Program-made: the position numbers and the translations under genes
Notes under the pieces: model-generated
Seen by the model: only the letters and a program-made list of their open reading frames with translations
Database searches by the model: none
What the model was told of the DNA's origin: nothing
Assembly: GCA_013298595.1 (NCBI GenBank)
Contig: JAAFIG010000007.1
Coordinates: forward strand, 65,574 to 129,573
Direction of reading: 5' to 3'
From: Deinococcales bacterium
GTDB taxonomy: Bacteria; Deinococcota; Deinococci; Deinococcales; JAAFIG01
DNA length: 64,000 nt
Part shown: one piece after another, positions 2,190 to 60,700 of the stretch
Layout of the letters: each line of letters opens with the position of its first letter
How positions within the stretch are numbered: position 1 is the first letter of the stretch

Positions 2190-2208
2190 ATAAGAAGGAG
2201 TGATTACG

Positions 2209-3444
2209 TTGTTAGCAGAAATAATTAGTGTTGGTACAGAACTGCTGATGGGCGAAATCGTTGACTCCAACGCAGCTTACCTTGCCCAAGAACTGAAAAA
2301 CCGAGGTGTCTTCATGCACTGGAAAACCACTGTTGGTGATAACCTCGAGCGAATCCAAGAAGCCATTGCACGCGCAATAACACGTTCTGACCTGATTATC
2401 CTTGGTGGCGGACTTGGACCAACCGACGACGACTTAACCAGAGAAGGCATCCTTGCCTGTATCAACGAAAAAGCCGTTATAGACGAAACATACCTTGCTA
2501 AACTCCGCAGCTGGTTTGAAGCTCGAGGGCGCAGTTTCCCCGAGCAAAACATCAAACAAGCTTGGGTTTCCAAAAGCGCCGAAGCCATTGCCAACCCAGT
2601 TGGCACTGCTCCAGGTTGGTTTGTTCGCGTACCAAACACAAAAAAAGTGATCGTTGCTATGCCCGGACCACCTCGAGAAATGAAACGCATGTGGGCAGAA
2701 CAAGTCTTGCCACGCCTTGAATTACCGCAAAGTGGTTTCTACTTCAAAACGTTTCGTACTGTTGGCATTGGCGAAAGCCACCTTGCCGAACGCTTAGGCG
2801 AACTGACCCAACTCGAGAACCCCAGCATTGGCACTTACGCCCGCCGCGATGGAGTCCATGTTCGAGTGGCAGCCAGTGCCAGCACCCTCGAGGCAGCCAC
2901 AACTTTAGCCCAAAGCAGCGAAGACGCTGTCCAAGAAAAACTACGAGGTTTTATTTACGGCACCGACGAACAAACCCTGCCTGAAATTATTCTCGAGCAA
3001 CTTCGGTATAAAAACCAAACCCTTGGTGTGATCGAAAGCATCTCAGGTGGCATTATTGCCGATGAACTCAGCAACCCCAAAGGTTCAAGTGACCGCTTCC
3101 AAGGGGGCACAATCGCCTACTCAAGCCAAGCCAAAATCCAACTTGGTGTTAACCCAGAAATGATATCCCAACACGGCGCAATCAGTGCCGAAACCAGCAA
3201 AGCCCTGGCTAGTTTAGCCCGCAGCAGTTTTGCTGCCGACTGGGGACTTGCTTGCACAGGCGCAGCCGACAATACCTTCGGCGATTCGATGCCCGCTGGT
3301 ACATTATTTGTTGCTATTGCCACCCCAAACGGAGAAATCCTCGAGCAACAATTGGTCGTTGCAGGAGATCGCCGTTCTATGAAAGAACGAGCTGCCTTTA
3401 GCGCGCTTGGAATGCTCTGGAGGACAATGAACAAAGACAATTAA
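2209..3444 (+). CDS. cinA: CinA family protein (competence/damage-inducible, nicotinamide-nucleotide amidase)
   Basis: Two-domain CinA of about 411 residues. The N-terminal MoCF/MoaB-like domain begins LAEIISVGTELLMGEIVDSN and carries GGLGPTDDDLTREG, as in molybdopterin-binding and ADP-ribose pyrophosphatase-like domains. The C-terminal CinA domain (SISGGIIADELS, ACTGAAD) is the pyridine-nucleotide (NMN) deamidase type. The TTG at 2209 is preferred over GTG 2200: it leaves AAGGAG at a normal distance and matches the family N-terminus (LAEII.VGTELL). It is 80 bp upstream of recA on the same strand, an order known from Gram-positives and Deinococcus, where CinA is tied to recombination and transformation. 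Seven CTCGAG sites occur in the gene. Confidence 0.93.
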   Translation: MLAEIISVGTELLMGEIVDSNAAYLAQELKNRGVFMHWKTTVGDNLERIQEAIARAITRSDLIILGGGLGPTDDDLTREGILACINEKAVIDETYLAKLRSWFEARGRSFPEQNIKQAWVSKSAEAIANPVGTAPGWFVRVPNTKKVIVAMPGPPREMKRMWAEQVLPRLELPQSGFYFKTFRTVGIGESHLAERLGELTQLENPSIGTYARRDGVHVRVAASASTLEAATTLAQSSEDAVQEKLRGFIYGTDEQTLPEIILEQLRYKNQTLGVIESISGGIIADELSNPKGSSDRFQGGTIAYSSQAKIQLGVNPEMISQHGAISAETSKALASLARSSFAADWGLACTGAADNTFGDSMPAGTLFVAIATPNGEILEQQLVVAGDRRSMKERAAFSALGMLWRTMNKDN

Positions 3445-3524
3445 CGCTAAAATTCAGATAAGACCACACGCAAAAAAGCCCAAGCAGCACCCACTCAGCC
3501 TAGCGCCCGAAAGGAACAACCATC

Positions 3525-4619
3525 ATGGCAGTTACTAAGAAAAAAGAAACCGATTTTGATCACGACGACATGAACGCCACTCAACTCACCGCTCATCGCA
3601 AAAAAGCCCTCGAGAGCGCCATGAGTCAAATCGAAAAGGCATTCGGTAAGAACGCCATCATGAAACTCGATGCCTCGAGCAAATTACAAGTCGAAGTCAT
3701 TCCCACAGGCAGCATGAGCTTAGACCTTGCCCTCGGCGTTGGTGGCGTACCCAAAGGTCGGATCATCGAAATATACGGACCCGAAAGCGGTGGTAAAACC
3801 ACCTTAACCCTCACCATTGCCGCACAGTGCCAAAAAATGGGTGGTACAGTTGCTTTCATTGATGCCGAACACGCCCTCGACCCTGTCTACGCCAAAGCCC
3901 TTGGTGTCAACACTGACGAATTACTGGTTTCACAACCAGACACAGGCGAACAAGCCCTCGAGATTGCTGAATTACTGGTTCGTAGCGGCGCAGTGGACAT
4001 GATTGTCATTGATAGTGTGGCTGCTTTGGTTCCTCGAGCCGAAATCGAAGGCGAAATGGGTGACAGCCTGCCTGGTTTACAAGCCCGTTTGATGAGCCAA
4101 GCCTTACGTAAACTGACCGCAATTTTGCATAAATCTAACACCACCATGATTTTCATTAACCAAGTACGCGAAAAAATCGGTGTGATGTATGGCAACCCAG
4201 AAACCACCACAGGTGGCAAAGCCCTCAAATTCTACGCCAGCGTCCGCTTAGATATTCGCCGCATCGGGCAACCGATTAAAGTTGGCAACGATGCCGTAGG
4301 CAACAACGTCAAAATCAAAGTGGTCAAAAACAAAGTCGCACCGCCTTTCAAAGAAGTCGAAATTCAAATTTACTTCGGCAAAGGCATAGACCAACTCAAC
4401 GACCTTGTTAACTTATCCTCGAGTCTCGAGATTGTCGAAAAAGCAGGCAGTTGGTTCAGTTACAACGGCGAACGAATCGGGCAAGGTAAAGAAAAAGTTG
4501 TTGAATTTATCAAAGCCCGCCCAGCCCTTGAAGAAGAACTTCGCGCCAAAGTGTTTGAAGCTATTCGTAGTGGCAAAGGCGATAACCTTGTAGTAGTTGC
4601 CAGCCCAGCCGAAGATTAA
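3525..4619 (+). CDS. recA: Recombinase RecA
   Basis: Full-length RecA of 364 residues, catalysing ATP-dependent strand exchange and LexA-type co-proteolysis. Visible landmarks are Walker [10 protein letters not shown] (about residues 85-93), the [10 protein letters not shown] segment, Walker B MIVIDSV, and the L1/L2 DNA-binding stretch with [27 protein letters not shown] basic, Gly-rich C-terminus follows. AAAGGAAC lies upstream of the ATG. It is probably co-transcribed with cinA and ends at a strong terminator. Of its 28 Glu codons only three are GAG, and all three sit inside CTCGAG. Confidence 0.99.
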
Positions 4620-24337: not shown

Positions 24338-25522
24338 TTACGCCCTTGTAGTAACAATATCCACACTGGCAGCCCACTGACTAATATCACGGCGTTGAAT
24401 AGCCGCTGCCATCATGTCTGGAAACAAATCTGGTGTACAAGCAAACACAGGCACACCCATTTTGGCGAGTGCTGCACCATTTTGCACATCGTAACTGGGT
24501 CTGCCATCATCAGACAGCGCCAGCAAAGAAATGACCGTCACACCCGCAGCCACAAATGCCTCGAGTTTAGACAACATGGCAGCACTACCGCCACCTTCGT
24601 AAAGGTCAGAAATCAAAATAAAAATCGTATCCTCGGGTTTCTCGAGCAACCCCGCACAGTAATCCAGTGCTCGAGGGGTATCGTTACCACCACCGAGTTG
24701 CGTACCAAATAAGACATCCACAGGGTCGTGTAACTCGGCAGTTAAATCCACCACACTGGTGTCGTACACCACCACCCGTGTTCGCACTGCTGGTAGGCTT
24801 GCCAGCACCGCACCAAACACACCTGCGTACACCACACTTGATCCCATCGAACCACTTTGATCCAAGCACAAAATAATGTCACGCAGACTCGAGCGTTTGC
24901 GACCAAAACCAATTTTGGTTTCAGGCACAATACTCTGATAATCGGGTTGGTAATGCTTTAAGTTTGCCCGAATAGTCCGATTCCAATCCATTTCGGTGTG
25001 CTTAGGACGACGATTACGAATGGCACGATTCAGACTACCAACCACAGCTTCTCTGGTTTTCTCGGCTAATTTACGCTCGAGTTCCTCGACCACTTTACGC
25101 ACAATTAACCGCGCTGTTTCTTTGGCTTTGGCAGGCATGACATTCTTTAAGGAAAGTAATGTACTGACCATATGCACATCTGGCGTGACTGCCTCCATCA
25201 TCTCAGGCTCGAGCAGCATTCGTTTTAAGCCAAGCCGATCAAAGGCATCACGCTGCATCACTCGCACCACACTCGAGGGAAAAAACTCGCGGATATCACC
25301 AAGCCAACGTGCCACTTTCGGTTGCGATTTACCTTTTCCAACATTGTTACGGTTGCGTTCTTTATCCTCGGGCGACATGGGTTTACTCTCCCCATCGCCA
25401 TACAAAGACTCGAGCGCCATATCTAAACGCTGATCGGATGCACCACACGAACCACATGAATCATCGGCGGCACTGCCTAGCAGCAAACGCCAACGCCGAA
25501 AACGCTCTACCTCGAGACTCAT
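24338..25522 (-). CDS. VWA domain protein (CoxE/YehP-like) of the MoxR cluster
   Basis: A 394-residue cytoplasmic protein. The von Willebrand A domain (about residues 210-390) has an intact MIDAS site: LDQSGSM, a downstream Thr in GGGNDTPRAL, and an Asp in ILISDLYE. The N-terminal part is helical and charged, with a CGSCGASDQ segment near residue 23 that may bind metal. MoxR-type AAA ATPases typically act with a VWA partner to remodel or load metal onto targets, and the MoxR gene lies upstream in the same operon. It overlaps ung by 4 bp. It resembles E. coli YehP. Confidence 0.88.
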   Translation of the reverse strand: MSLEVERFRRWRLLLGSAADDSCGSCGASDQRLDMALESLYGDGESKPMSPEDKERNRNNVGKGKSQPKVARWLGDIREFFPSSVVRVMQRDAFDRLGLKRMLLEPEMMEAVTPDVHMVSTLLSLKNVMPAKAKETARLIVRKVVEELERKLAEKTREAVVGSLNRAIRNRRPKHTEMDWNRTIRANLKHYQPDYQSIVPETKIGFGRKRSSLRDIILCLDQSGSMGSSVVYAGVFGAVLASLPAVRTRVVVYDTSVVDLTAELHDPVDVLFGTQLGGGNDTPRALDYCAGLLEKPEDTIFILISDLYEGGGSAAMLSKLEAFVAAGVTVISLLALSDDGRPSYDVQNGAALAKMGVPVFACTPDLFPDMMAAAIQRRDISQWAASVDIVTTRA

Positions 25523-26184
25523 TCAAGACTCCAATCAATTGGGCTTTGCAATGCCGCATTGATCTTAGAAAAAGGCTTTGAACCAAAAAAACCATTACTA
25601 GCCGATAGCGGCGAAGGATGAGCGCTTTGAATCACTGTGTGCTTGGTCGTATCAATCAGCTCGAGTTTCTTTTGGGCATGAGCGCCCCACAAAACAAACA
25701 CCACAGGTTCGCCCTTGGCACTGACTGCCCTGATAATTGCATCGGTAAAATCCTCCCAACCACGTTTCTTATGCGAAGCTGGTTCGTGCGCTCGAACAGT
25801 TAAAACAGTATTCAACAGCAACACACCCTGCCGCGCCCAAGACTCGAGAAACCCATGCTTAGCACGTGGCACACCCAAATCCGACTCGAGTTCCTTGTAC
25901 ATATTAACCAAACTCGGCGGAACTTTGATGCCACGTTGCACACTAAACGCAAGCCCATGCGCCTGACCATCATCATGGTACGGGTCTTGCCCAACCACCA
26001 GCACCCGCACAGCATGAAACGGTGTGAACTCGAGTGCCGAAAACACTTCAGATTCAGGTGGGAAAACCTGATGCGCTTTACGTTCCGCTTCGAGAAAAGC
26101 CTCGAGTTTAGGCATGTATGGTTTAGAAAATTCAGACTCGAGCACGGTTTGCCAAGAAGCTGGGATTTGGGATTTCAGGGACAT
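25519..26184 (-). CDS. ung: Uracil-DNA glycosylase (family 1)
   Basis: A 221-residue Ung that removes uracil from DNA. Motifs are the water-activating loop GQDPYHDDGQAHGLAFSV (about residues 64-81, catalytic Asp), the Asn-containing LLLNTVLTVRAHEPASH, and HPSPLSASNGFFGSKPFSKIN with the Leu-intercalation His loop. The gene is complete. It lies in the middle of the MoxR/VWA operon: its stop overlaps the VWA start (ATGA), and upstream it is separated from DUF4240 by REP palindromes. Confidence 0.96.
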   Translation of the reverse strand: MSLKSQIPASWQTVLESEFSKPYMPKLEAFLEAERKAHQVFPPESEVFSALEFTPFHAVRVLVVGQDPYHDDGQAHGLAFSVQRGIKVPPSLVNMYKELESDLGVPRAKHGFLESWARQGVLLLNTVLTVRAHEPASHKKRGWEDFTDAIIRAVSAKGEPVVFVLWGAHAQKKLELIDTTKHTVIQSAHPSPLSASNGFFGSKPFSKINAALQSPIDWSLE

Positions 26185-26203
26185 GGGTTTCTCCTTTTTC
26201 TTT

Positions 26204-26265
26204 AGGTGAGGCGTGCCTCACCGTTATGGTTGGACAAAGCAAGGCGAGGCATGCCTCGCCCCTAG
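26204..26265. repeat. Two REP-like palindromes between DUF4240 and ung
   Basis: Palindromes at 26,204-26,229 (GGTGAGGC…GCCTCACC) and 26,242-26,265 (GGCGAGGC…GCCTCGCCCC). The first shows compensatory T/A changes that keep the stem. Confidence 0.85.
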
Positions 26266-26269
26266 AGGT

Positions 26270-26800
26270 TTAGTCTTCGTTTTGACTCATCAGGGCGAAC
26301 AGGTTTGGGAAATGCTCTTGGTAAAAATCATCATCATCTTCATTCCACATCTCACCAAATTGATGATTCGCATCTCGAGGTGGGAACGGTGGATACTGAT
26401 CGGTGCGGGCTTGGTAGACATCAGAAGCCACGGATAACATATCTTCAAACTCGAGTTCTTCGTAGGGTTCCCAGTCAGGAATTTGCGGCAAATAATCCGC
26501 TAAAGAATCAGGGTTCTCGAGGGCTGCAAAAAACACGGTTTTACCTTGGGCAACAAGCCAACCACGAAAATAATCAAAACCATCATCGGAGCAACCACCA
26601 TTTATCAGGTACGCAGCTGCCCACAGTTTTGAGAGATACGAACGGTTAAGAAAAGTCCAAATCCAACCATGTAATGCCACCAATTCATCGTTTGATAAGG
26701 TTTCGGCTTGCACAGAAAATTGTTCTCGTAAAGCCTCGAGATCATGACCAGCCACAGCTCTTGCATTCGCAATAAAATCCCAGAATTGATCTTCGGTCAT
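26270..26800 (-). CDS. DUF4240 domain protein
   Basis: A 176-residue protein beginning MTEDQFWDFIANARA, the start typical of DUF4240. Characteristic WTFLNRSYLSKLWAAAYLINGGCSDDGFDYFRGWLVAQGKTVFFAALENPDSLADYL and a late acidic tail (WNEDDDDFYQEHFPNL) follow. The family is uncharacterised; some members resemble WGR-/ADP-ribose-associated regulators, which I do not claim here. It lies within the MoxR operon but is flanked on both sides by REP palindromes, suggesting it arrived as a separate cassette. Confidence 0.88.
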   Translation of the reverse strand: MTEDQFWDFIANARAVAGHDLEALREQFSVQAETLSNDELVALHGWIWTFLNRSYLSKLWAAAYLINGGCSDDGFDYFRGWLVAQGKTVFFAALENPDSLADYLPQIPDWEPYEELEFEDMLSVASDVYQARTDQYPPFPPRDANHQFGEMWNEDDDDFYQEHFPNLFALMSQNED

Positions 26801-26832
26801 GATGATGCTCCTTTATGGTTAGTTAGAACGGC

Positions 26833-26859
26833 AAGGCGAGGCATACCTCGCCCCTACGG
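26833..26859. repeat. REP-like palindrome between DUF5682 and DUF4240
   Basis: One palindrome (GGCGAGGC…CCTCGCCCCTACGG) fills the gap directly after the DUF5682 stop codon. Confidence 0.8.
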
Positions 26860-26860
26860 T

Positions 26861-29119
26861 TTAGGACGGAATTCCTAGCATTTGCGAAATTAATGGCACA
26901 ACTTGTTCGGCTCGAGCATTATCCACGTTTTGATTGGCTCGAGTAACACTGATTGGCTTTGGGGTTTTAACTTTTTGTCCGATGTCACGGCGTTCGGCAG
27001 GTTCAAAACTCGAGAATGTACGCCGCAACAATGGCAGCACAGCAATAAAAGCTTCGGGTGTCAGGTACTGCACCCAAGAATCAAGCACACCAAACAAGGC
27101 ATCATCGTGCACCAAAACCAAACCACTGCCACGCAAAAAACCATCCAACCAAGCAGCCACTTCGTTAGGGTCAGAGGCAATACTTGCCACATACGACAAA
27201 CGATTGGCAGTGTCCTCGGCAGTAAACACACCTTGCTCGAGCAGCAATCTTGAAGCACGACCCGCAATCAAACCATGCAACCCAAGTTGTTTAGCCAGCA
27301 CTTGCAACACATCACGCCAAGCCTCGAGTAAACTGGGTTGCTCGAGGGTTTGAATAGCGCTGTGTAACTCGAGAAAATGCGGATAAAGATCAAGTGCAGC
27401 CTCATCGGATAAACTGGCGGTGGCATTAGGTAAACCAATACAGACACGCAACACCAAACCAGACACCACATGTTCCAACATTTTCGTATCGAGTTGCCGC
27501 ACACTGCCGTACCGCTGCACTCGAGCCAATGGCGGAATCGCTTGCATCAAATGATTGATATCAGCATCCTGAGCTGCCGCCGCCTCGAGCCGAGCCATAA
27601 CCAGTTGCGCCGCATTGGGCAAATTCGACAGCAAGACATCATCCAGTAAACCCGTTAAGGTTGGTAAATGACTGGTTAAACTCGAAATTTCCAGAACCTT
27701 CTGTGTTGCTGCTTCAAGCACACTCGAGCCAAACATCGCCGCTTCGATCAAACGCACTGCAAACTCAGGATGCCACTGCACCCGCCATGCCTCTTTGAAC
27801 GTACCCTTGCCACTCGAGCCAACACTTTCGCCCCACGGTACACCCAGCAACCGCAACCGATGCAACAACACACTGCGCTCGAGATCATTGGGTTGACGCA
27901 AATCGAATTCCACATTTTTAGCAGTTGCATCAGGCTTAAACCGCAAACGTTTTTGCTCCGCCTCGAGATCACGCACCAACGGCACCGTCGGTGTTTCCGC
28001 GGGCACGGCACCAAGGGTTTCTGCCAGAATCAACTTATCGCTAATCAGTGCAAGTGGCAAATCAGAATCCCAAGCAAACAATGCCCGCGAAACCTCATTC
28101 ATTTCGTCTAACCCCGGCATCGGCGAACCACGCAAGGCTGCCAGCGTCTCGGCTAAACGCACCGCTTCGATAATACTGGCACTCGAAGCAGGTAAATCCT
28201 CAGCTCGCAACAAATGCGCCACCTTGGTCAACCAATGCGACACCACATTGCGCGAAGACGAATCCTGCAAATCCCACAAATGCGCGTACCAACCTGGGCT
28301 GGTCACACCCGCACCATAGCCACTCGAGCGAGCTAAACGACCAAACGTCCACGGAATCCACGTACTCGAAACAGCGACCTTTGGTAAATTCTCCAGCAAC
28401 TTCGCATCGGCTTTGGCATCCGCCACCTCGAGATTCAACGCAGGTGAATGCCACGCACCACAAACCACTGCGATACGCTGAAAACCATCCTTTTGCGCCT
28501 GACGAATGGTTTGTCGCATAAAGGCTTCACGCAACGCCTCACGCGGCTCGAGCATCTTCGACTCAAGCCTCAGCGCCGTCATTGCCTCGAGAATCGCTGC
28601 GAAGACATCCTCATCCGAACGGCGCTGCTCGACCAAATACTCCCAGTAACGCTCACCATCAGAAAAACCAGCAGCTCGAGCCAACCAACCCAACGGGTCA
28701 GCTGCAACATCATCAGATTCAGCATTAGCATCGCTCGAGGCATCAGATTCGGTTTCGGCATTGGGCGAGGCATGCCTCGCCCCTACGAGTTCGGTAGGAT
28801 CAGCAAGCAATTGATGGGCTTGCGGTAAATCCATAAAACGCACCGAAGCATTATTCTCGAGCGCAAAACGAATTGCTTGAAACTCAGGCGAAAACGCAGC
28901 AAACGGATAATACACAGCCTTCGACGGATCATCCTTAGCATGCAACAACAACGCAATAGGCGGTTTCATATCCACATGCCCAAGCAACGGCAACAAATCA
29001 TTAGCATCAGGCGGACCCTCCACCAACACACAATCAGGCTCGAGCACCCGCAACGCCCGCAACAACGAACGCGCCCCACCAGGACCATGATGACGCACAC
29101 CAAACAAATGCACACTCAT
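26861..29119 (-). CDS. DUF5682 family protein (YehM-like)
   Basis: A 752-residue DUF5682 protein. The N-terminal signature MSVHLFGVRHHGPGGARSLLRAL, then VLVEGPPDANDLLPLL and later IAVVCGAWHSPAL, resembles the active-site-like His and Glu layout of TraB/EreA-type folds; whether it is an enzyme is not known. The C-terminal half is Leu/Ala-rich helical repeats. It is encoded next to MoxR and VWA genes throughout bacteria. A REP palindrome at 28,763-28,787 is translated in frame (VGARHASPN near residue 114). Its ATG overlaps the transposase stop. Confidence 0.9.
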   Translation of the reverse strand: MSVHLFGVRHHGPGGARSLLRALRVLEPDCVLVEGPPDANDLLPLLGHVDMKPPIALLLHAKDDPSKAVYYPFAAFSPEFQAIRFALENNASVRFMDLPQAHQLLADPTELVGARHASPNAETESDASSDANAESDDVAADPLGWLARAAGFSDGERYWEYLVEQRRSDEDVFAAILEAMTALRLESKMLEPREALREAFMRQTIRQAQKDGFQRIAVVCGAWHSPALNLEVADAKADAKLLENLPKVAVSSTWIPWTFGRLARSSGYGAGVTSPGWYAHLWDLQDSSSRNVVSHWLTKVAHLLRAEDLPASSASIIEAVRLAETLAALRGSPMPGLDEMNEVSRALFAWDSDLPLALISDKLILAETLGAVPAETPTVPLVRDLEAEQKRLRFKPDATAKNVEFDLRQPNDLERSVLLHRLRLLGVPWGESVGSSGKGTFKEAWRVQWHPEFAVRLIEAAMFGSSVLEAATQKVLEISSLTSHLPTLTGLLDDVLLSNLPNAAQLVMARLEAAAAQDADINHLMQAIPPLARVQRYGSVRQLDTKMLEHVVSGLVLRVCIGLPNATASLSDEAALDLYPHFLELHSAIQTLEQPSLLEAWRDVLQVLAKQLGLHGLIAGRASRLLLEQGVFTAEDTANRLSYVASIASDPNEVAAWLDGFLRGSGLVLVHDDALFGVLDSWVQYLTPEAFIAVLPLLRRTFSSFEPAERRDIGQKVKTPKPISVTRANQNVDNARAEQVVPLISQMLGIPS
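28763..28787. repeat. REP-like palindrome inside the DUF5682 coding sequence
   Basis: GGGCGAGGC…GCCTCGCCCCTAC lies within the gene without breaking the frame. It encodes VGARHASPN in a Ser/Asp/Ala-rich linker. Confidence 0.85.
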
Positions 29120-29745
29120 ACCAACACCTCGAGCCTTGCAAAAACCAAATCATGCAACACCAAATCAGATTTCGCCTCGAGATCAAACAACCAACTCGAG
29201 GGATTGACTTTGATGTAATCACGAACAGCCTGTAATTCGTGGTTGTTACGTAAAACACGTTCAAAATAATTGCGCTGCCAAACAACCAAATTTGGATTAT
29301 CAAAACGAACCCGAGCAACTCGAGAAACTGCTGACTTAAAACCACCAATAATTGCCCCCAATGAATTGGCTGATGCGTTCATTGGGGGGTCGGCGGTCTT
29401 GGTTTGTGATAAAAACAATTCTTTTCGTGCAGCGGCTAACTGTATTGATGCGTTTGCCATTGGCAAATTGGGCGAGGCAAGCCCCGCCCCTACGGCTGGT
29501 TGAATGCAAACAATCGCATGAATGTGATTTGGCATGACAATAAATTCGTCTAAAACAATATTTTCACGCAACTGCCCCATCCGATGCCATTCCTCGAGAA
29601 TAATTTTCCCTAATTCATTTAATTGCATTTTTTGATCATCAATTGAACCAAAAATCTGTTCTCGCTGATAACTACAAATCGTAATGAAATACGCACCGCT
29701 CGAGGTGTAATCAAAATTGCGTAATCGAATGCTGTTGCGTTCCAT
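29116..29745 (-). CDS. REP-associated tyrosine transposase (RAYT, TnpA_REP/IS200-like)
   Basis: A Y1 HUH-type transposase of about 209 residues from ATG 29745 (MERNSIRLRNFDYTSSGAYFITIC). The HUH motif is PNHIHAIV, and the catalytic Tyr lies in RDYIKVNPSSW near the C-terminus; VWQRNYFERVLRN is typical of the RAYT group. An in-frame extension to TTG 29880 (254 residues) overlaps the MoxR stop by 4 bp, but it translates a 30-bp tandem repeat and a REP. The stop overlaps the DUF5682 ATG, so the gene is embedded in the operon. A second REP (29,470-29,496) is translated inside it. Confidence 0.9.
   Translation of the reverse strand: MERNSIRLRNFDYTSSGAYFITICSYQREQIFGSIDDQKMQLNELGKIILEEWHRMGQLRENIVLDEFIVMPNHIHAIVCIQPAVGAGLASPNLPMANASIQLAAARKELFLSQTKTADPPMNASANSLGAIIGGFKSAVSRVARVRFDNPNLVVWQRNYFERVLRNNHELQAVRDYIKVNPSSWLFDLEAKSDLVLHDLVFARLEVLV
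29470..29496. repeat. REP-like palindrome inside the RAYT coding sequence
   Basis: GGGCGAGGCAAGCCCCGCCCCTACGG is translated as part of PAVGAGLASPN, between the HUH motif and the C-terminal domain. The frame is kept. Confidence 0.85.
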
Positions 29746-29771
29746 AAAACCCCAAAATCCCTGTCCTAAAC

Positions 29772-29796
29772 CGTAGGGGCGGGGCTTGCCTCGCCC
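29772..29796. repeat. REP-like palindrome in the RAYT leader
   Basis: CCGTAGGGGCGGGGCTTGCC… lies just upstream of the likely RAYT start. In the extended frame it encodes GRGKPRPYG. Confidence 0.8.
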
Positions 29797-29855
29797 TTGC
29801 CCGTAACGATGCTGATCCATCCTGACTTGCCCGTAACGATGCTGATCCATCCTGA
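29796..29855. repeat. Two perfect 30-bp tandem repeats in the RAYT leader
   Basis: The unit beginning CTTGCCCGTAACGATGCTGA occurs at 29,796-29,825 and again at 29,826-29,855, identical. Its length is a multiple of three. On the minus strand it encodes a repeated RMDQHRYGQ block, so the frame from the MoxR stop to the RAYT stays open. Confidence 0.95.
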
Positions 29856-29876
29856 CCCATAAACAAAACAAATCCT

Positions 29877-30956
29877 TCAAACCACGTCACGACAAGCCCG
29901 ATAAACGTCTTTCCATCCGTCGCGTTCTTTGACCACTGTCTCGAGGTACTCAAGCATGACTACTCTGTCTTGGATTGGGTCTTTGATGATTGCACCTATG
30001 AGGCTTGAGGCGACATCGTTAGCGCGGAGGATGCCATCGCCAAAGTGGGCTGCGAGGGCAAGTCCTTGGTTGATAACGCCGATGGCTTCAGCGGTGCTAA
30101 GTGTGCCGCTTGGGCTTTTCAGTTTGGTTTTTCCGTCGAGTGTTTTGCCGTCGCGGAGTTCGCGGAAGACTTGGACAACCCGACGGATTTCTTCGAGTGC
30201 GGGTGGTTCGGCGGGTAGCTCGAGAGCGCGTCCAAGATCGGCTACGCGAGTTTGCACAATACGAATTTCTTCGTTGAGGTCGTCTGGTACGGGTAAAATA
30301 ACAGTGTTGAAGCGGCGTTTGAGGGCGCTCGAGAGTTCGTTGACTCCTCGGTCTTTGTTGTTGGCGGTGGCGATCATGTTGAAGCCTTTTTGGGCTTGGA
30401 CTTCGCTATTAAGTTCGGGGATGGGCAGTGTTTTTTCGGATAGCACGGTAATCAGTGCGTCTTGAACATCGGATGGGATGCGGGTGAGTTCCTCGAGTCG
30501 AGCAATAGCGCCTGTTTTCATGGCGCGAATGATTGGGCTTTCGACGATGGCTTTGACGCTGGGTCCTTTGGAGAGCAGTTCGGCGTAATTCCAACCGTAA
30601 CGAATGGCTTCTTCGGATGTGCCAGCGGTGCCTTGAACCAGTAAGGTGCTATCGCCACTGATGGCGGCGGCTAAGTGTTCGGATACCCAACTTTTGGCTG
30701 TGCCCGGCACGCCAAGTAATAACAGTGCGCGGTCGGTGGCAAGGGTTGCCACGGCGATTTCCATCAGGCGTTGGTTGCCGATGTATTTGGGTTTGATCTC
30801 GAGTTTGCTAACCTTGCCACCCATCAGGTATTGAATCACTGCCCACGGGCTGAGTTTCCAGTTGGGTGGTCTGGGTTTGTCGTCGAGTTTGGCGAGTGCC
30901 TCGAGTTCTTCTGCGAATTGTTGTTCGGCGTGTTGACGGAGGGCATTTTCGCTCAT
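29877..30956 (-). CDS. MoxR-family AAA ATPase (YehL-like)
   Basis: A 359-residue AAA+ ATPase from ATG 30956, which overlaps the DUF5691 stop by 4 bp. Walker A is LGVPGTAKSW, Walker B/sensor region ARLEELTRIPSDVQDALITVLSE, and sensor 1/arginine-finger segment IATANNKDRGVNELSSALKRRFN. The C-terminal lid follows. MoxR proteins act with VWA partners as remodelling chaperones; the VWA, SWIM, DUF5682 and DUF5691 partners are all in this operon. A longer frame from 31043 would overlap the upstream gene by 90 bp and lacks conservation. Confidence 0.93.
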   Translation of the reverse strand: MSENALRQHAEQQFAEELEALAKLDDKPRPPNWKLSPWAVIQYLMGGKVSKLEIKPKYIGNQRLMEIAVATLATDRALLLLGVPGTAKSWVSEHLAAAISGDSTLLVQGTAGTSEEAIRYGWNYAELLSKGPSVKAIVESPIIRAMKTGAIARLEELTRIPSDVQDALITVLSEKTLPIPELNSEVQAQKGFNMIATANNKDRGVNELSSALKRRFNTVILPVPDDLNEEIRIVQTRVADLGRALELPAEPPALEEIRRVVQVFRELRDGKTLDGKTKLKSPSGTLSTAEAIGVINQGLALAAHFGDGILRANDVASSLIGAIIKDPIQDRVVMLEYLETVVKERDGWKDVYRACRDVV

Positions 30957-32506
30957 GGTTGTAGTTCCTTTCGCATTGCGTTGCGGGTCTCGAGGTGAGA
31001 GATGAGGGTTTTGATTTGCTCGAGGTGGTGTTGGATGTACCATGCTCGATTATTTTTTTCGGGGTTAAATTGGTTTGTTTGCTCGAGGAAACTTGTCCAG
31101 TTTGGGTGTTTTGTTGGGTTGTGCCAGTGCTGAATAATGTCTGGGTGGCAGTATTGGGCGATGTTTTGGATGTTGTGGTAATTGCTGGTACCTTTGAGGA
31201 TTTGTTTGCTGATATTGCCTAGCCACTCGAGGCAGTCGCGGCTGAATTCGATGTTCCATGCGTGGTTCATCCAAGCGAGCCATTGAAAATCGTGGGTTTG
31301 TTTAGCGAAGATAAAGTACCGAACGCGTTTTTCGCGTTGCTCGAGGCTTAGGGTTTTCATCAGGGTTTCGTTTTTGATTAGGTCGTTGTCGTAACTGAGT
31401 AAGGCATCTATCCATTCTGGGTTGGGGTGAATTTCGTTGGCTTGAACAAAGGCAATCAATAAGTTTTTGCGCCAATCTTTGGGTAGGCGTTTGATGATTT
31501 CTTTTGGCTCGAGATGAAAGTGTGGTTGCCATGTGCTGATGGGGATATTAGCGATGATGCTTTGCAACCAGTAGGCTTTGTCGCCGCCTGTGCCGTATGG
31601 TGTTTTTTTCTCAATACCATCGCGTCCAAGTTCGGTGTTCCATTCGGGTAATTCGATTTCAAATTCTGGTGCGCCAAGTTTCAATGCCGATTTTTTCAGT
31701 GGGATGCTCAGGATGTTTTGTCCTCGAGCAATCATGCGTTGCACCAAGGCGCTGTTGGGTAGTTTAGCCAGTAACATGGCGGCGATACTGCGGACATCTT
31801 TGCTGCGATCATCTAAGCAAGTCTCGAGGAAAGGTTCGTCGGCATCGGTTAATTTGCTTTCGAGTTCGCTTAAAAAAGTTTTGCGTTCCTCGGCAACTTC
31901 GGCTTTCCAAACACTTTGTAATAAGTCTCGGGCGGTGTCTGGTTGTTCGGTTCGGATGCTGCGAAAAGCCAGGACCCGAGCGGCTTTGGTACCTGTTTCC
32001 CATGTCTCGAGGGCATTTTCTAAGCTGCTGGTGTTACCTGTTGCCCATGACCAGTACGGGTTTTGTTGGGCTAACCAACGTCCTCTCGAGTCAAGGATTG
32101 GCATGATGGTTTCGCGGCTGGCAGTATTTTGTCTGCCGTAATCGAGCAAAGCAATAATATGGCTGTGCGGAATAGCATAATTGCTTTGCTTGACCAACTC
32201 GAGCCATTCGGGAATTAGTTCTGTTGCCGAGGCAAATAACAAATCGAGTCGTTGCATGGCTGCTTCAGAAATACGCACTCGAGTATCAGGTTCGGCTGGT
32301 GTCAGCGGTTTGCTATTGGCATTGGTTTGTTCGCCTGCTCGAGTCATGGCAAAAGCCAGTGCGGCAACGCCAAGCAGTTGTCCTGTATGGCGTTGGTCTT
32401 CTAAGTTCACTCGAGCTTTTTCAAGGGCGGGGTGCTCCAGCGTACCAAGGGGGCTGCGTTCAGTGCCGAGTAAAGCACTCGAGATGATGGCGCGAAGGTC
32501 GTTCAT
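30953..32506 (-). CDS. DUF5691 family protein
   Basis: A 517-residue protein that begins MNDLRAIISSALLGTERSPL, as DUF5691 members do. It is mainly helical, with HEAT-like segments (RDLLQSVWKAEVAEERKTFLSELESKLTDADEPFLETCLDDRSKDVRSIAAMLLAKLPNSALVQRMI) suggesting a scaffold. It is coupled to SWIM upstream and MoxR downstream by 4-bp overlaps. The molecular role is unknown; the family is essentially always found beside MoxR and SWIM genes. Confidence 0.88.
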   Translation of the reverse strand: MNDLRAIISSALLGTERSPLGTLEHPALEKARVNLEDQRHTGQLLGVAALAFAMTRAGEQTNANSKPLTPAEPDTRVRISEAAMQRLDLLFASATELIPEWLELVKQSNYAIPHSHIIALLDYGRQNTASRETIMPILDSRGRWLAQQNPYWSWATGNTSSLENALETWETGTKAARVLAFRSIRTEQPDTARDLLQSVWKAEVAEERKTFLSELESKLTDADEPFLETCLDDRSKDVRSIAAMLLAKLPNSALVQRMIARGQNILSIPLKKSALKLGAPEFEIELPEWNTELGRDGIEKKTPYGTGGDKAYWLQSIIANIPISTWQPHFHLEPKEIIKRLPKDWRKNLLIAFVQANEIHPNPEWIDALLSYDNDLIKNETLMKTLSLEQREKRVRYFIFAKQTHDFQWLAWMNHAWNIEFSRDCLEWLGNISKQILKGTSNYHNIQNIAQYCHPDIIQHWHNPTKHPNWTSFLEQTNQFNPEKNNRAWYIQHHLEQIKTLISHLETRNAMRKELQP

Positions 32507-33813
32507 GCTTGCCCTCCGATACTGTGGACTTTGCCATCGGTGAATAAAGTGATTGGTGTTAATTCTTTGCCGTCATATTCACCAAAAAGTTGTACAGGGT
32601 GTCCGCCACTCAGTGCCAGCATTTGCCAACCTCGTTCGGTGTTCAAAGGTATGGCATGGCTCGAGTCTTGCACGCGCCAATCTGTGTCATCAAAAATAAT
32701 TTGTACCGCCTCGAGACAGATGGGGTAACGTTCGAGCCAAGGCAATTTTGCAAGAGCTGCTGCGTATTTCTCGAGCGCGGTGTGGATGCTATCGGCTGGT
32801 AGTGTTGAAATATTTTCCAGCATTTTGACATCAGGTTTGAGGATGGCTCGGAGTGGCAAATTGCTCGGGTAAAACACCAGTTCGGTCTCGAGGGTCACAC
32901 CGATGGGTACGCCACCTGTCATTGGTTGATTTGCCACAGCAAAATCGAGCAGTAGTGCAGGTTCTCGAGTGTCAGCATGCTCGAGGTACGTGCGGCGAAC
33001 TCGCAGGTTGTCTTCTTGAACCAGTATTTGCCCAAGGCTATGCCAACGGCTGCGCGGTACACTGGCTTGCAGCAGTTCAGCTTTGTCTTGAGTAAAACCA
33101 ATGGCGGCACGCACATCGGCTTGCGTGGTTGCAGAAAGTGTCTCGAGACGGCTGTACGCACTAATAATTAAATGCAAACGTGCCAATGCCTCGAGTAATG
33201 CGTTGGTGCCACTGCTGGCAGCCGTAGGGAGGTCTCGTACCATGCGGGCTAACCCTGGGGCTTGAGCATCCACCAACCGAGCTGCTACGGTTTCCCAGTA
33301 ACTGTACGGCTGGCTTGGCGCGTTTGCCAAACCATTTTTAATTTGATCGTGCAACCACAAACCAAATTCCTCGATTCCTGCCGATACTTTATTTTCCCGC
33401 GAAGCCACACGTTTCGCCGCAGCTTTATCGGCTTTGGCTTGTTCTTCTGGGGTTAATTCCTTAGGTGGTGCAGTTTTAGCTTCGGCACGTTTTTGTCTTC
33501 CCTCGAGCCACGTTGTTACCCACTCGGGCGGTGTGCCCGTCTCGAGTGGTTTAGCAGCATGCAAAAGCATCAAACCAATCGCGTGTTTACACGGAAATTT
33601 CCGACTGGGGCAACTGCATTTGGCGGTGTAATCGCTTAAATCTACCCGAGTTTGATACGGGTCTTTGCCGCTGCCTTGGCATTCGCCCCACAGGGCGGTT
33701 TCGCTGGCGGCAGTACTTTTCCATTTGCTGGCATTGGCGAGTCCTTTGCCGCTCGAGGCTGAGGATGCGTCTGGGGCTAAAGCGAGGATTTGTGCGGCGT
33801 TGAGTTGCGTCAC
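32503..33813 (-). CDS. SWIM zinc-finger protein (YehQ-like)
   Basis: A 436-residue protein with an N-terminal SWIM motif C-S-C-P-S-R-K-F-P-C-K-H (about residues 71-82; CxCx6CxH) in the context DYTAKCSCPSRKFPCKHAIGLML. SWIM domains bind zinc and DNA or protein. The rest is a long helical region without a recognised domain. It is the first gene of the operon SWIM–DUF5691–MoxR–RAYT–DUF5682–DUF4240–ung–VWA. The 220-bp spacer upstream, shared with a divergent reductase gene, must hold the operon promoter, but I could not define it. Confidence 0.9.
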   Translation of the reverse strand: MTQLNAAQILALAPDASSASSGKGLANASKWKSTAASETALWGECQGSGKDPYQTRVDLSDYTAKCSCPSRKFPCKHAIGLMLLHAAKPLETGTPPEWVTTWLEGRQKRAEAKTAPPKELTPEEQAKADKAAAKRVASRENKVSAGIEEFGLWLHDQIKNGLANAPSQPYSYWETVAARLVDAQAPGLARMVRDLPTAASSGTNALLEALARLHLIISAYSRLETLSATTQADVRAAIGFTQDKAELLQASVPRSRWHSLGQILVQEDNLRVRRTYLEHADTREPALLLDFAVANQPMTGGVPIGVTLETELVFYPSNLPLRAILKPDVKMLENISTLPADSIHTALEKYAAALAKLPWLERYPICLEAVQIIFDDTDWRVQDSSHAIPLNTERGWQMLALSGGHPVQLFGEYDGKELTPITLFTDGKVHSIGGQA

Positions 33814-34033
33814 GGGCTTCCTTTACGATGTCTGGTTACGGGCTACCAGAAGAATACGTTAATAACAGAATGCTGTCAAGTCTCAGATTCACAGTCTACC
33901 TAAACAGATAACAGTTCAATGTGTGTTAATTATCTCTTTTTTTGTCCCGTTTTGGAATCAATTTTTTGATGACGAGCAAAAAGTTTCAACGTATACTTTG
34001 GCTGTATCATCAAACTAAGGCAAAGGAACACCC

Positions 34034-38368: not shown

Positions 38369-38863
38369 ATGACTTGGCGTGAAGTGATTGAAAATCCTGC
38401 ACTAACGAATTTGCCATTCAAAATCGAAACCAACGAGTATGGGCAGGTGGTTATGAGTCCAGCGAAGGCTGTACATGGCTTATTCCAAGGTGTGATTCAA
38501 AATTTGTTGAACTTGTCATTCAGCGCAGGTCAAACCATGCCTGAAGCACCCATCGAAACCCGTAAAGGTGTCAAAGTTGCTGATGTTGCATGGTTATCCT
38601 TCGATTTTCTCGAGCGTCACATCGAAGAAGACGCTTTTTCAGCAGCTCCTGAATTATGTATCGAAGTGATCTCACTAACCAATACTCAAAAAGAAATCCT
38701 TGAGAAATGTGCATTGTATTTAGAAGCAGGCGCACTCGAGGTTTGGACTTGCGATCTCAAAGGACAAATTCGGTTCTTTGACAACTCAGGCGAACTAAGC
38801 GTGAGTACATTGGCGCCACGTTTTCCTAAGCAAATCAGTATCATTAGCCAAAAAGCCTCTTGA
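38369..38863 (+). CDS. Uma2 family protein (second copy)
   Basis: A 164-residue DUF820/Uma2 protein, paralogous to the one at 16.4-16.9 kb. It shares TWREVIENPALTNLPFKIETNEYGQVVMSP, KGVKVADVAWLSFDF and ELCIEVISLTNTQKEILEKCALYLEAGALEVWTCDLKGQIRFF. The catalytic-type Asp and Glu of the PD-(D/E)xK-like fold are present. It is inserted between accA and rpsP. Function unknown. Confidence 0.88.
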   Translation: MTWREVIENPALTNLPFKIETNEYGQVVMSPAKAVHGLFQGVIQNLLNLSFSAGQTMPEAPIETRKGVKVADVAWLSFDFLERHIEEDAFSAAPELCIEVISLTNTQKEILEKCALYLEAGALEVWTCDLKGQIRFFDNSGELSVSTLAPRFPKQISIISQKAS

Positions 38864-57731: not shown

Positions 57732-60700
57732 TTATCCCACGAGTTGCCGTAACAAAATCGGGTCTTGAATTTCAGAATCTTTTGCCAACATCAGTACCTT
57801 AGCAATCACCTCTGCGGTGCGTGGGTCAGAATCCGCGAACGGCAAGAAAATCCGTCCTCGAGCCTGATTCGGCACTGCCACCAAGCAAATCGCGCCGCCT
57901 GGTTGCTGATGCACCACAGCACTGCCAAGATGCACGCTGTACCGTCCAATTTGCCCTTCGATGAGTGCCACTGATTTCTCGAGTTTGACATTGCTGATTT
58001 TGAGTAATCGCAGTGTCTCGAGCAACAGCGCTGCTCGCATTTCAGTGGTGCTTTGTGAGGCTTCGGGGTCTACGCCGCCAACATGCGCCACTGAAACCAC
58101 CAAGTCAATGTCGCGCATGATTTCCGAGTACAAACGCTTTGGCATACTCTCGAGAGCAAGCGATTCGTAATCGCCGCGTTTGGTGAAATACACTGTGTCA
58201 AGGGCGGGTGCTTCGATTTCGGCTGGTGTTGTCCAACCTTGTTTGCTACTGACATGGGCGGTAATGCCTTCAGCAAAGAATGTACGGCTGGCATCACCTT
58301 CATAAGCATTGACCACCCAGCCTCTCGAGCCAAGCAATGCAGCACTTTGGCGTTGGTTGATCTGATGTCCTGCGTAACGACTGGACTTGGTTTTCTCGAG
58401 TTTTTCAGCATCGGTTAAGAGGTAGAGTTCCCGAAAAATCTGTTTGAATGGTTGCTGGCGTTTGGCACTAAAAAACGCTCCTTGGAATTCACTCCATTTT
58501 TTGCTCTCAAGTAAATCCACTGGGTGTGCAAGGCGTAAACTCGAGGCTTGAATACCAAGCAATTCGCCAGCCGCACTGACCAAGTTTTTACCATCAGCAC
58601 TTAAAAACCCCATTTGTTTTTCGTCTATAAAAACCAGTTGCTCGAGCATCGGTTTAACAATTGGGTGCTTGGTTAAATCTCGTAATTCCTTAGCAGTAAA
58701 TTCATCACCGTGAATCATGGCACGCTCGAGTGAAACTCGCATTCGACTGCGTTGCGTCTCGAGTTCTTTTCGTCTGGCACGAATTTCGATAACGGCTTCG
58801 TCTTTTTTTAGATTCGCAGGAATATCTTTGAGGGTCTTACCTGCTTTTTGAATCTCGAGCAGTGGTTCGCCATCAGCGGTGACCGATAAAATCAGTTCAA
58901 TATCGCCTTTTTTCAGAGTCACAGCGCCTTTAGATAAATCTGCTACGGCTTTTAATTCCATTGCCCACTCAAGCCGCATCGGGTCTGGGTAGCCAGCCGT
59001 GCGTGCCAAATTCTCGAGTCCGATTCGGCTGGCAAGCCGTTCAGATTCTTTGCGTTGTGAACCAAATTGTTTACTTTGTTTTAAGAAGGTTTGTATCACT
59101 TCGTAACGTGCTAAAAGCGCAGCATCTTTGGCTTTGGGCAGTGGTAACAACCCAAGAGCACGCACACTATCTTGATGGCGTTTACTGGTGATACGGGTGA
59201 TCACTTCCGATTCAACAAGTTTCCCGAGCATGGCATCGGCAAATTGCTTAGCTCTGGCATGACCCGTACCAGAAGTGATGTACTTGGCAGCATCATAAAT
59301 TTGTGTCCAATGTTCAGCGCCTAAGTCCTTATACACCCGATTAAACCATGCCACATCCACAGCACCATCCATTAAATCCTCGGTGGTCAGTGGGGTTAAT
59401 TGTGCCATCTCGAGTTTCCAATTTTCCCCTTCGGAATCGGTGCTAAAGCCACCTTCTTTGGTATGCGCCCGCAACCAATACATGCCTTCGGATAAGCCTT
59501 TCCAGCCAATGGTTTTAGCAACAAATTGTGTCCATTGTGGTGCAAACAAACCAAGCTCGAGTAAGCGTTGCTCGAGGATACCAGCTTTTTTCATGGCTTT
59601 AGCAAAATCGGTTTGCGTATCTGTTTTAGCTGGGTAAACAGCTTGTAAAAGGTCTGAAAATACATTCATACGTGGTGCTTCGCCACTATAATAATACCCA
59701 CTACCACGTGAAATATTATCCTTACCAATGGTGGTTAGAATCTGCATTAAACGCGGTAAGCCCTCTAAGAAACGAATGCGACTGGCTGCACCTGTGGCAG
59801 CGGTTGGTAAATCGCCTCGAGCCAATTCGATCTCGAGAACCCGATTAGCGCATTGCTCGAGTAATGGTTGTAATTGTGGGTAGGTTTTGACTAAATCAGA
59901 AGGGGTTTTGAGTAAATGCTCGGTAAAACCATTGTTGCATTTGACATCTTTTACTGGACGCAGATTCTCCGTACCAATCAGGGCTTCCATGACATCGGTT
60001 TGGTTAGCAATGCCTGCTGCCCAAGCTGGCATTAAGTAATCAAGATTGATAGTACGACGATAATTCCACCATAAACGCAATCCCATACTATGCTCGAGTT
60101 GCCAAGTCCGAATTTTTTGTGCATTGGTCAATTCAGCTTGACTGGTCGCAATTTTAAGAATAATTGGATTGAGTTTTTTAAATGCCAAATAGGTTTTGTC
60201 TTTTTGCAATTTTTCTTCATCAGGAAGTTCAGCTCCTGCTACAACAAATTTCTTAAAGCCTTGCTCGAGCATTGGAATACTTTGCGCCAATTGATCCTCT
60301 AAAATATCCAAGGCAAAATCGTGCTCGTTAGCGGCTGGGTAGAGTTCTTTGAACCAGTGCAGGATTTGCACCAAATGACTCTCGAGGTTTGCATCGGCTT
60401 CTTTGCGTTTTTTTGGTTTTAAACTCGAGAAATACGTTTTTTGCAACTCGGTATTGGTGATGCCAGGATCATCATTATCGGGGTCGAGATCGTAAACAAA
60501 ATCTTCGTCGTAATAATCATCGTCATCATCGGTATCAGACTTAAACATAAACGAACGAATCGCAATTGCCCGTAGCACCTCGAGTCCATCGCTATCACGT
60601 TCTTTAGCAGTACGATTCAGAAACCAAGTTGACCACATTTCAGATAATGGAAATTTCTGCCATTGCTCGAGTAGTGTTTCTTCTTTGTTGTGCGTATTTG

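Follow-up and report, generated by a model that had tools for sequence, protein, structure and literature searches.

An operon of about 9 kb from a Deinococcales bacterium is probably an uncharacterized part of the DNA-damage response in Deinococcus-group bacteria, because it carries the same DNA switch as recA. The operon occupies positions 24338-33813, minus strand, of a 64,000-nucleotide stretch of contig JAAFIG010000007.1 (hereafter, the window). It is a five-gene core of unknown function built on an ATP-driven remodelling pair, a MoxR-type AAA+ ATPase and its VWA partner, to which a SWIM zinc-finger protein and members of the families DUF5691 and DUF5682 are joined. Its promoter contains a candidate operator for the damage-response repressor DdrO, and the N-terminus of DUF5682 is remotely related to the TraB/TIKI proteins. 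The best explanation, to which a probability of roughly 0.57 is given, is a damage-induced machine in which MoxR and VWA would remodel or activate a TraB-like hydrolase, DUF5682, for damage recovery, under repression by DdrO in those Deinococcota that possess it. If true, this would be a new class of AAA+ machine in the DNA-damage tolerance of radiation-resistant bacteria.

A candidate DdrO operator in the operon promoter

A sigma-70-type promoter (TTGACA-17-TATTCT; 33851..33879, minus strand) with the best promoter-like score of the region precedes the SWIM gene, and the operon promoter in genome G001 has the same -35 and -10 hexamers. A predicted DdrO operator, the radiation/desiccation response motif (RDRM) TTCTGTTATTAACGTAT (33854..33870, minus strand), begins in the spacer between these hexamers and extends into the -10 element. 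The RDRM consensus and the Deinococcus radiodurans sites bound by DdrO are described in the literature (PMC8533742). On a symmetrized position weight matrix derived from those sites, the validated D. radiodurans sites have a median score of 15.7 (lower quartile, 13.4), and the site in the window scores 16.9, above that median. The G001 operon carries an identical RDRM at a near-identical position, and further sites precede the operons of G002 (16.2), G008 (14.5), D. taeanensis (17.9), and G063 (13.7), all of them no more than 114 bp from the SWIM start. Each operon score was reached by 0-3 of 500 shuffles, and the best RDRM score among 65 operon upstream regions from other phyla was 13.0. Among 200-bp tiles taken from DdrO-bearing genomes, seven (about 0.8%) attain a score of 13.7, of which four are promoters of this operon.

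The site also largely follows the repressor. Full-length DdrO is encoded in the genome of the window (G000) and in G001, G002, G003, G008, and G063, with at least 89% identity within the window's family, 77% in G008, and 69% in G063; D. taeanensis was counted as DdrO bearing from the literature, which reports the DdrO–IrrE pair to be highly conserved in Deinococcus (PMC8533742). The DdrO of the window's genome (open reading frame [ORF] on L167) matches the DdrOC structures in the PDB (E=5e-65). The Trueperaceae genomes G104, G105, G058, and G092, in contrast, yielded only weak partial DdrO matches or none. Of seven Deinococcota operons with DdrO, six are preceded by an RDRM, as against none of four Trueperaceae operons without the full-length repressor. 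These four are distinct loci, two from G104 and one each from G105 and G058, L045 being the same locus as one of the G104 operons. The co-occurrence of RDRM and DdrO has a Fisher p of ~0.015, uncorrected for relatedness (the value is also 0.015 with L045 counted apart).

The DdrO regulon itself appears to be live in the window's genome. The only other RDRM in the window as strong as that of the operon (2204-2220; score 16.8) lies at the start of cinA in a cinA-recA operon (2200..4619, plus strand; NCBIfam CinA and RecA), which in D. radiodurans is a canonical DdrO-regulon operon (PMC8533742). Elsewhere in the genome, strong RDRMs precede ligA, a polB-like gene, and recQ; ddrO itself is preceded by a site scoring 14.6. 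The operon thus resembles the known regulon in having a 17-bp palindrome within its promoter, in a genome that also encodes DdrO and RDRM-bearing cinA-recA and ligA. It differs in that the D. radiodurans regulon table names no MoxR, VWA, SWIM, DUF5691, or DUF5682 gene, the related entries being DUF4132 and WGR. Overall, a putative operator for DdrO in the operon promoter is well supported, and in DdrO-bearing Deinococcota the operon would be repressed by DdrO and derepressed in vivo after DNA damage.

Two side observations concern the same genomes. The strongest RDRM-like site encountered, TTATGCTCTTAACAGAA (19.2), is in G003 (L109:12345), where the operon is split. It directly precedes a small ORF of 127 aa that resembles a glyoxalase on visual inspection and follows closely downstream of the segment with DUF5682, ung, and VWA. 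In G000, a RecQ-like ORF is convergent to ddrO (C35 near 18067, L167), and another recQ (L125) has an RDRM of 18.1, so that two helicases of the RecQ type seem to be encoded there.

Operon organization and conservation of the core

All genes of the operon named in the original prediction, as well as its coordinates, were borne out on the minus strand. The SWIM protein (32503..33813; 436 aa; Pfam PF04434, E=1.7e-7) is encoded first and is followed by DUF5691 (30953..32506; 517 aa; PF18944, E=1e-115), a YehL-like MoxR-type AAA+ ATPase of the AAA_5 family (29877..30956; 359 aa; PF07728, E=1.6e-37), DUF5682 (26861..29119; 752 aa; PF18934, E=4.9e-262), DUF4240 (26270..26800; 176 aa; PF14024, E=4e-36), a family 1 uracil-DNA glycosylase, ung (25519..26184; NCBIfam NF003589, E=5e-96), and a VWA_CoxE protein, the MoxR partner (24338..25522; 394 aa; PF05762, E=1e-44). 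Overlooked in that prediction was an IS200-like transposase gene of the repetitive extragenic palindromic (REP)-associated tyrosine transposase (RAYT) family between MoxR and DUF5682 (29116..29745, minus strand; PF01797 and NF047646, matched on the ORF 29880-29116). Stop and start codons overlap (ATGA type) at four junctions, namely SWIM/DUF5691, DUF5691/MoxR, RAYT/DUF5682, and ung/VWA. Whether internal terminators split the operon could be answered in part: two intergenic gaps hold REP-type palindromes, without strong T-runs. The operon is flanked in the window by transporter genes and acetyl-CoA carboxylase genes.

When genome contigs were scanned with an alignment of DUF5682, at least 574 relatives were confirmed, and 80 loci were kept for neighborhood analysis, in which core genes were detected with profiles built from the window proteins. 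All five core genes (SWIM, DUF5691, MoxR, DUF5682, and VWA) are present in 66 of the 80 independently fetched loci, which exceeds chance, and several of the others are operons cut by contig ends. Across loci carrying the full core, the order SWIM–DUF5691–MoxR–DUF5682–VWA is near-constant; in several loci, SWIM and DUF5691 form a single fusion protein. Likewise, DUF5682 and DUF5691 were found in the same six genomes when ten relatives were checked. The kept loci with the core belong to Cyanobacteria, Chloroflexi, Planctomycetes, Bacteroidota, Actinomycetota, Proteobacteria, Verrucomicrobia, and Deinococcota, and the system also occurs on plasmids. The families are thus tightly linked, not scattered as would have spoken against a single system.

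The suggestion that ung and DUF4240 hint at the function of the operon fared less well: both genes are present in the window operon and neither belongs to the core. Among the loci scanned, ung is adjacent to the system in three genomes only, all of the window's family (G000, G001, and G003), where it adjoins VWA in G001 and G003 as it does in the window, and DUF4240 is found at the operon in the window only. Both were rejected as definers of function, being lineage-local and a poor guide to it.

MoxR–VWA systems, and yehLMPQ of Escherichia coli as an uncharacterized cluster, are already known. As far as our searches reached, the conserved five-gene core with its exchange of DUF5691 for DUF4132, the assignment of DUF5682 as TraB-like, and the damage operator are new. 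A literature search on DUF5682 and DUF5691 found, in the collection of papers covered, no mention of either and nothing on the function of the system, and a search for MoxR together with TraB or Tiki likewise found nothing.

Predicted activities of the encoded proteins

The ATPase and its adaptor are predicted to be an active pair, because the P-loop, the arginine pair, and the Asp and Ser of the metal ion-dependent adhesion site (MIDAS) are invariant in 82-83 relatives. Specifically, the P-loop Gly and Lys, the E155/E156 pair, and R214/R215 of MoxR are invariant in 83 relatives, as are the MIDAS motif DQSGS and D306 of VWA in 82. At residues 277-283 of VWA, the position of the MIDAS threonine is occupied by Asn (GGGND) in the window's lineage and by Thr in E. 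coli and Allorhizobium. The PDB relatives of MoxR are midasin and NorQ; among small MoxR proteins of solved structure, NorQ was the nearest one retrieved. The zinc ligands of SWIM (C66, C68, C75, and H77) are invariant in 32 aligned sequences. The AlphaFold2 model of DUF5691 (predicted local distance difference test [pLDDT] 91) is an all-helical HEAT/ARM-like solenoid, whose best Foldseek matches are to proteins with helical repeats, none of them reaching E <0.001.

The AlphaFold2 model of DUF5682 (mean pLDDT 88.6) consists of an alpha/beta domain (residues ~1-280) and a C-terminal helical-repeat tail. Its N-terminal domain contains the motifs RHH (9-11), E34, RExxM (E198 and M201), and GAWH (G221 and H224), in which R9-H11, E34, E198, M201, G221, and H224 are invariant or nearly so. 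The first and last of these motifs align colinearly with TraB in two hhalign comparisons (P ~0.009 each), and the last-motif score of 28.2 compares with 13.8 +/- 2.2 (maximum, 20.0) for 60 column shuffles. The best VIA match to residues 1-237 of the full-length model is 7w5z_E (Z 9.3; root-mean-square deviation, 4.7; 184 residues aligned), a TraB family protein (PMC10060162). With the whole model as query, most Foldseek matches were to helical-repeat proteins, owing to the dominance of the tail, and among PDB sequences the DUF5682 profile found chance-level matches only. Thus, the DUF5682 N-terminus is remotely related to TraB/TIKI, and the protein is presumably a metal-dependent hydrolase. 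With the TraB/TIKI/ChaN superfamily it shares the colinear GxxH, E, RExxM, and GxxH motifs; it differs in its long helical-repeat tail and in the form of the first and last motifs, RHH and GAWH.

Proposed mechanism

Characterized MoxR–VWA pairs mature or activate protein complexes (PMC3893208). By analogy with such pairs, VWA would dock targets via its MIDAS, MoxR would remodel them with ATP, and DUF5682 would act as a hydrolase activated or fed by the pair. SWIM and the helical-repeat scaffold (DUF5691, or DUF4132 in other branches) may select the targets and are likely to bind substrate or DNA. DdrO on the promoter RDRM would repress the operon until its release after DNA damage, and under such control the machine would most likely work in DNA-damage recovery. 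A possible task is the processing or disassembly of protein or nucleoprotein complexes as candidate substrates. The link to nucleic acids in the original prediction holds in this form, through the RDRM promoter and the DUF4132/WGR partners found in damage regulons, and not through ung or DUF4240.

Several observations weigh against this reading. Genome G003 encodes DdrO, and its operon is split and has no RDRM. Across the genome, degenerate matches to the RDRM show no enrichment relative to the reversed pattern, and a site of 16.7 turned up in one of ten shuffled windows; a single RDRM therefore proves little, and the weight of the operator case lies on conservation and position. Many phyla carry the system without an RDRM, suggesting that damage control may be local, and within the class the system is patchy (11 of 111 genomes). 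The relation of DUF5682 to TraB is remote, the Z score of 9.3 is modest, and individual DUF5682 members, compared with Pfam, reach E values of only ~0.13 to TraB and 0.16 to ChaN. Finally, the DUF4132 gene of the window, 24 kb from the operon (57732..62609, minus strand; 1625 aa; PF13569 search), has an upstream RDRM-like score of only 9.5, which is weak.

A variant of the system in Escherichia coli

The system is present in E. coli K-12 and many bacterial phyla, and the damage operator together with the predicted enzymatic part would provide the first testable function for the long-uncharacterized E. coli cluster. By tblastn, yehL corresponds to MoxR (39%), yehM to DUF5682 (26%), and yehP to VWA (35%), nearly full length. 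As in the window, MoxR, DUF5682, VWA, and SWIM (yehQ) are clustered with the same MoxR and VWA motifs; in E. coli, however, SWIM comes last instead of first. E. coli yehLMPQ is a variant of the same system. The parallel drawn in the original prediction was right for these four genes; it left out the DUF4132 genes upstream (the pseudogene yehH and yehI) in a cluster that has no annotated DUF5691 and whose function is likewise uncharacterized.

DUF4132 is the sixth operon gene, alongside DUF5691, in six Chitinophagaceae-type loci, and a DUF4132 gene also lies inside the Allorhizobium operon; therefore, DUF4132 is common to the E. coli and window-type branches. The window operon has no DUF4132 gene, and DUF5691 stands in its place; HEAT repeats were found in the DUF4132 member scanned. 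In D. radiodurans, DRA0166 (DUF4132) and DR2173 (WGR) are induced by mitomycin C in an IrrE-dependent manner (PMC8533742), and E. coli MolR has been described as LexA regulated (PMC3978071). A LexA-box-like sequence, CTGGATAAAATTACAG, is located ~10 bp before yehF. The case for LexA control in E. coli is taken from the published work, since LexA patterns with one mismatch show no enrichment in the yehF stretch (11 found versus 6.8 expected). A wider version of the proposal, tentative and on balance rather unlikely, is a new kind of damage-response machine common to E. coli (yehF to yehQ, under LexA) and Deinococcota (under DdrO). In it, a MoxR–VWA motor would drive a TraB/TIKI-like hydrolase, which SWIM together with scaffolds of WGR/DUF4132 or DUF5691 would direct to damaged or crosslinked nucleoprotein for its removal.

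Alternative explanations

The operon might instead encode a maturation chaperone comparable to RavA-ViaA, CoxDE, or NorQD, in which MoxR–VWA loads or assembles a metalloenzyme, either DUF5682 or an unlinked enzyme, the damage control in Deinococcota being a local adoption. Assembly or activation of complexes is what known MoxR–VWA pairs do (PMC3893208), the VWA protein is of the CoxE type, NorQ is the structural relative mentioned above, and the RDRM is absent from the operons examined outside Deinococcota. Nonetheless, this alternative is considered unlikely: neighbor clustering, in which most clusters are unidentified, revealed no recurrent metalloenzyme or cofactor gene; the recurrent partners (SWIM, DUF5691, and DUF4132) are not such enzymes; and DUF4132/WGR genes belong to damage regulons in two phyla. 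RavA-ViaA, NorQ-NorD, and CoxD-CoxE resemble the operon in having a MoxR ATPase gene beside that of a VWA (MIDAS) adaptor. To our knowledge, none of them has a SWIM, DUF5691, or DUF5682 partner or a DNA-damage operator.

An anti-phage or conflict system, as hinted at in the original prediction, would have DUF5682 as an effector released by MoxR–VWA. Some defense genes also show damage-linked induction, and the patchy distribution and plasmid occurrence would fit such a role. MoxR-vWA cores are found in predicted ternary conflict systems, which have a large third protein as well (PMC7159879). In those systems, however, the third part is VMAP, iSTAND, FtsH, or a beta-propeller protein accompanied by variable effectors, whereas here DUF5682 and the gene order are constant. 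None of these domains (VMAP, iSTAND, FtsH, or variable effectors) was among the Pfam matches, Pfam coverage of them being unchecked, and the window MoxR scores 25.6 bits against the model of the beta-propeller subtype, bpMoxR, under the cut-off of 27. PADLOC gave no match at E 0.01 for ten proteins scanned, including all eight operon ORFs, and scans of viral contigs with DUF5691 and MoxR found no relatives, although this is a weak test that reaches close relatives only. The transporter and carboxylase genes at the flanks also argue against a conflict role; among the flank proteins, PADLOC matched an ABC-transporter ATPase and a permease resembling MacB, both read as generic, as well as a Uma2-type protein at 38369 and, weakly, the zinc finger of a carboxylase. 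With no positive evidence for the hint, a conflict function is regarded as improbable.

It is very improbable that the operator match arose by chance or lacks a function and that the operon is an ordinary housekeeping unit, even though motif-bearing promoters are often unbound by DdrO (PMC8533742) and G003 lacks the site, given its identity and near-identical position in G001, its presence in four further lineages, its rarity in shuffles, and the failure of any of 65 control upstream regions, and of all but ~0.8% of tiles, to reach the same score.

The RAYT gene and REP-type palindromes

The RAYT gene was found at the MoxR–DUF5682 junction in five genomes from two families, all Deinococcota (window 29116-29745; L015:10001-10639; L016:5870-6484; L110:7531-8034; and L159:6494-7012), and as it is confined to these genomes, it was rejected as a general component of the system. 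The G003 operon is interrupted immediately past RAYT, and in G002 the contig ends at the RAYT junction. The HUH and Tyr motifs are intact in the three ORFs read, and identity across genomes is 37-51%, a divergence far faster than that of neighboring genes. ORFs that occupy this site elsewhere (203 aa in L009, 78 aa in L008, and 241 aa in L044) showed no Pfam match and no visible similarity to RAYT.

Nine REP-type palindromes are present in the window, and none was found in shuffles. In three of the five genomes, an in-frame palindrome lies inside the RAYT ORF, with a stem sequence that differs between genomes. Such palindromes within coding sequence are located at 28762-28783 and 29469-29490 in the window and at L015:10960, and recall the Rickettsia palindromic elements; they encode peptides such as VGARHASP, and the one in DUF5682 falls in a low-confidence loop of the model.

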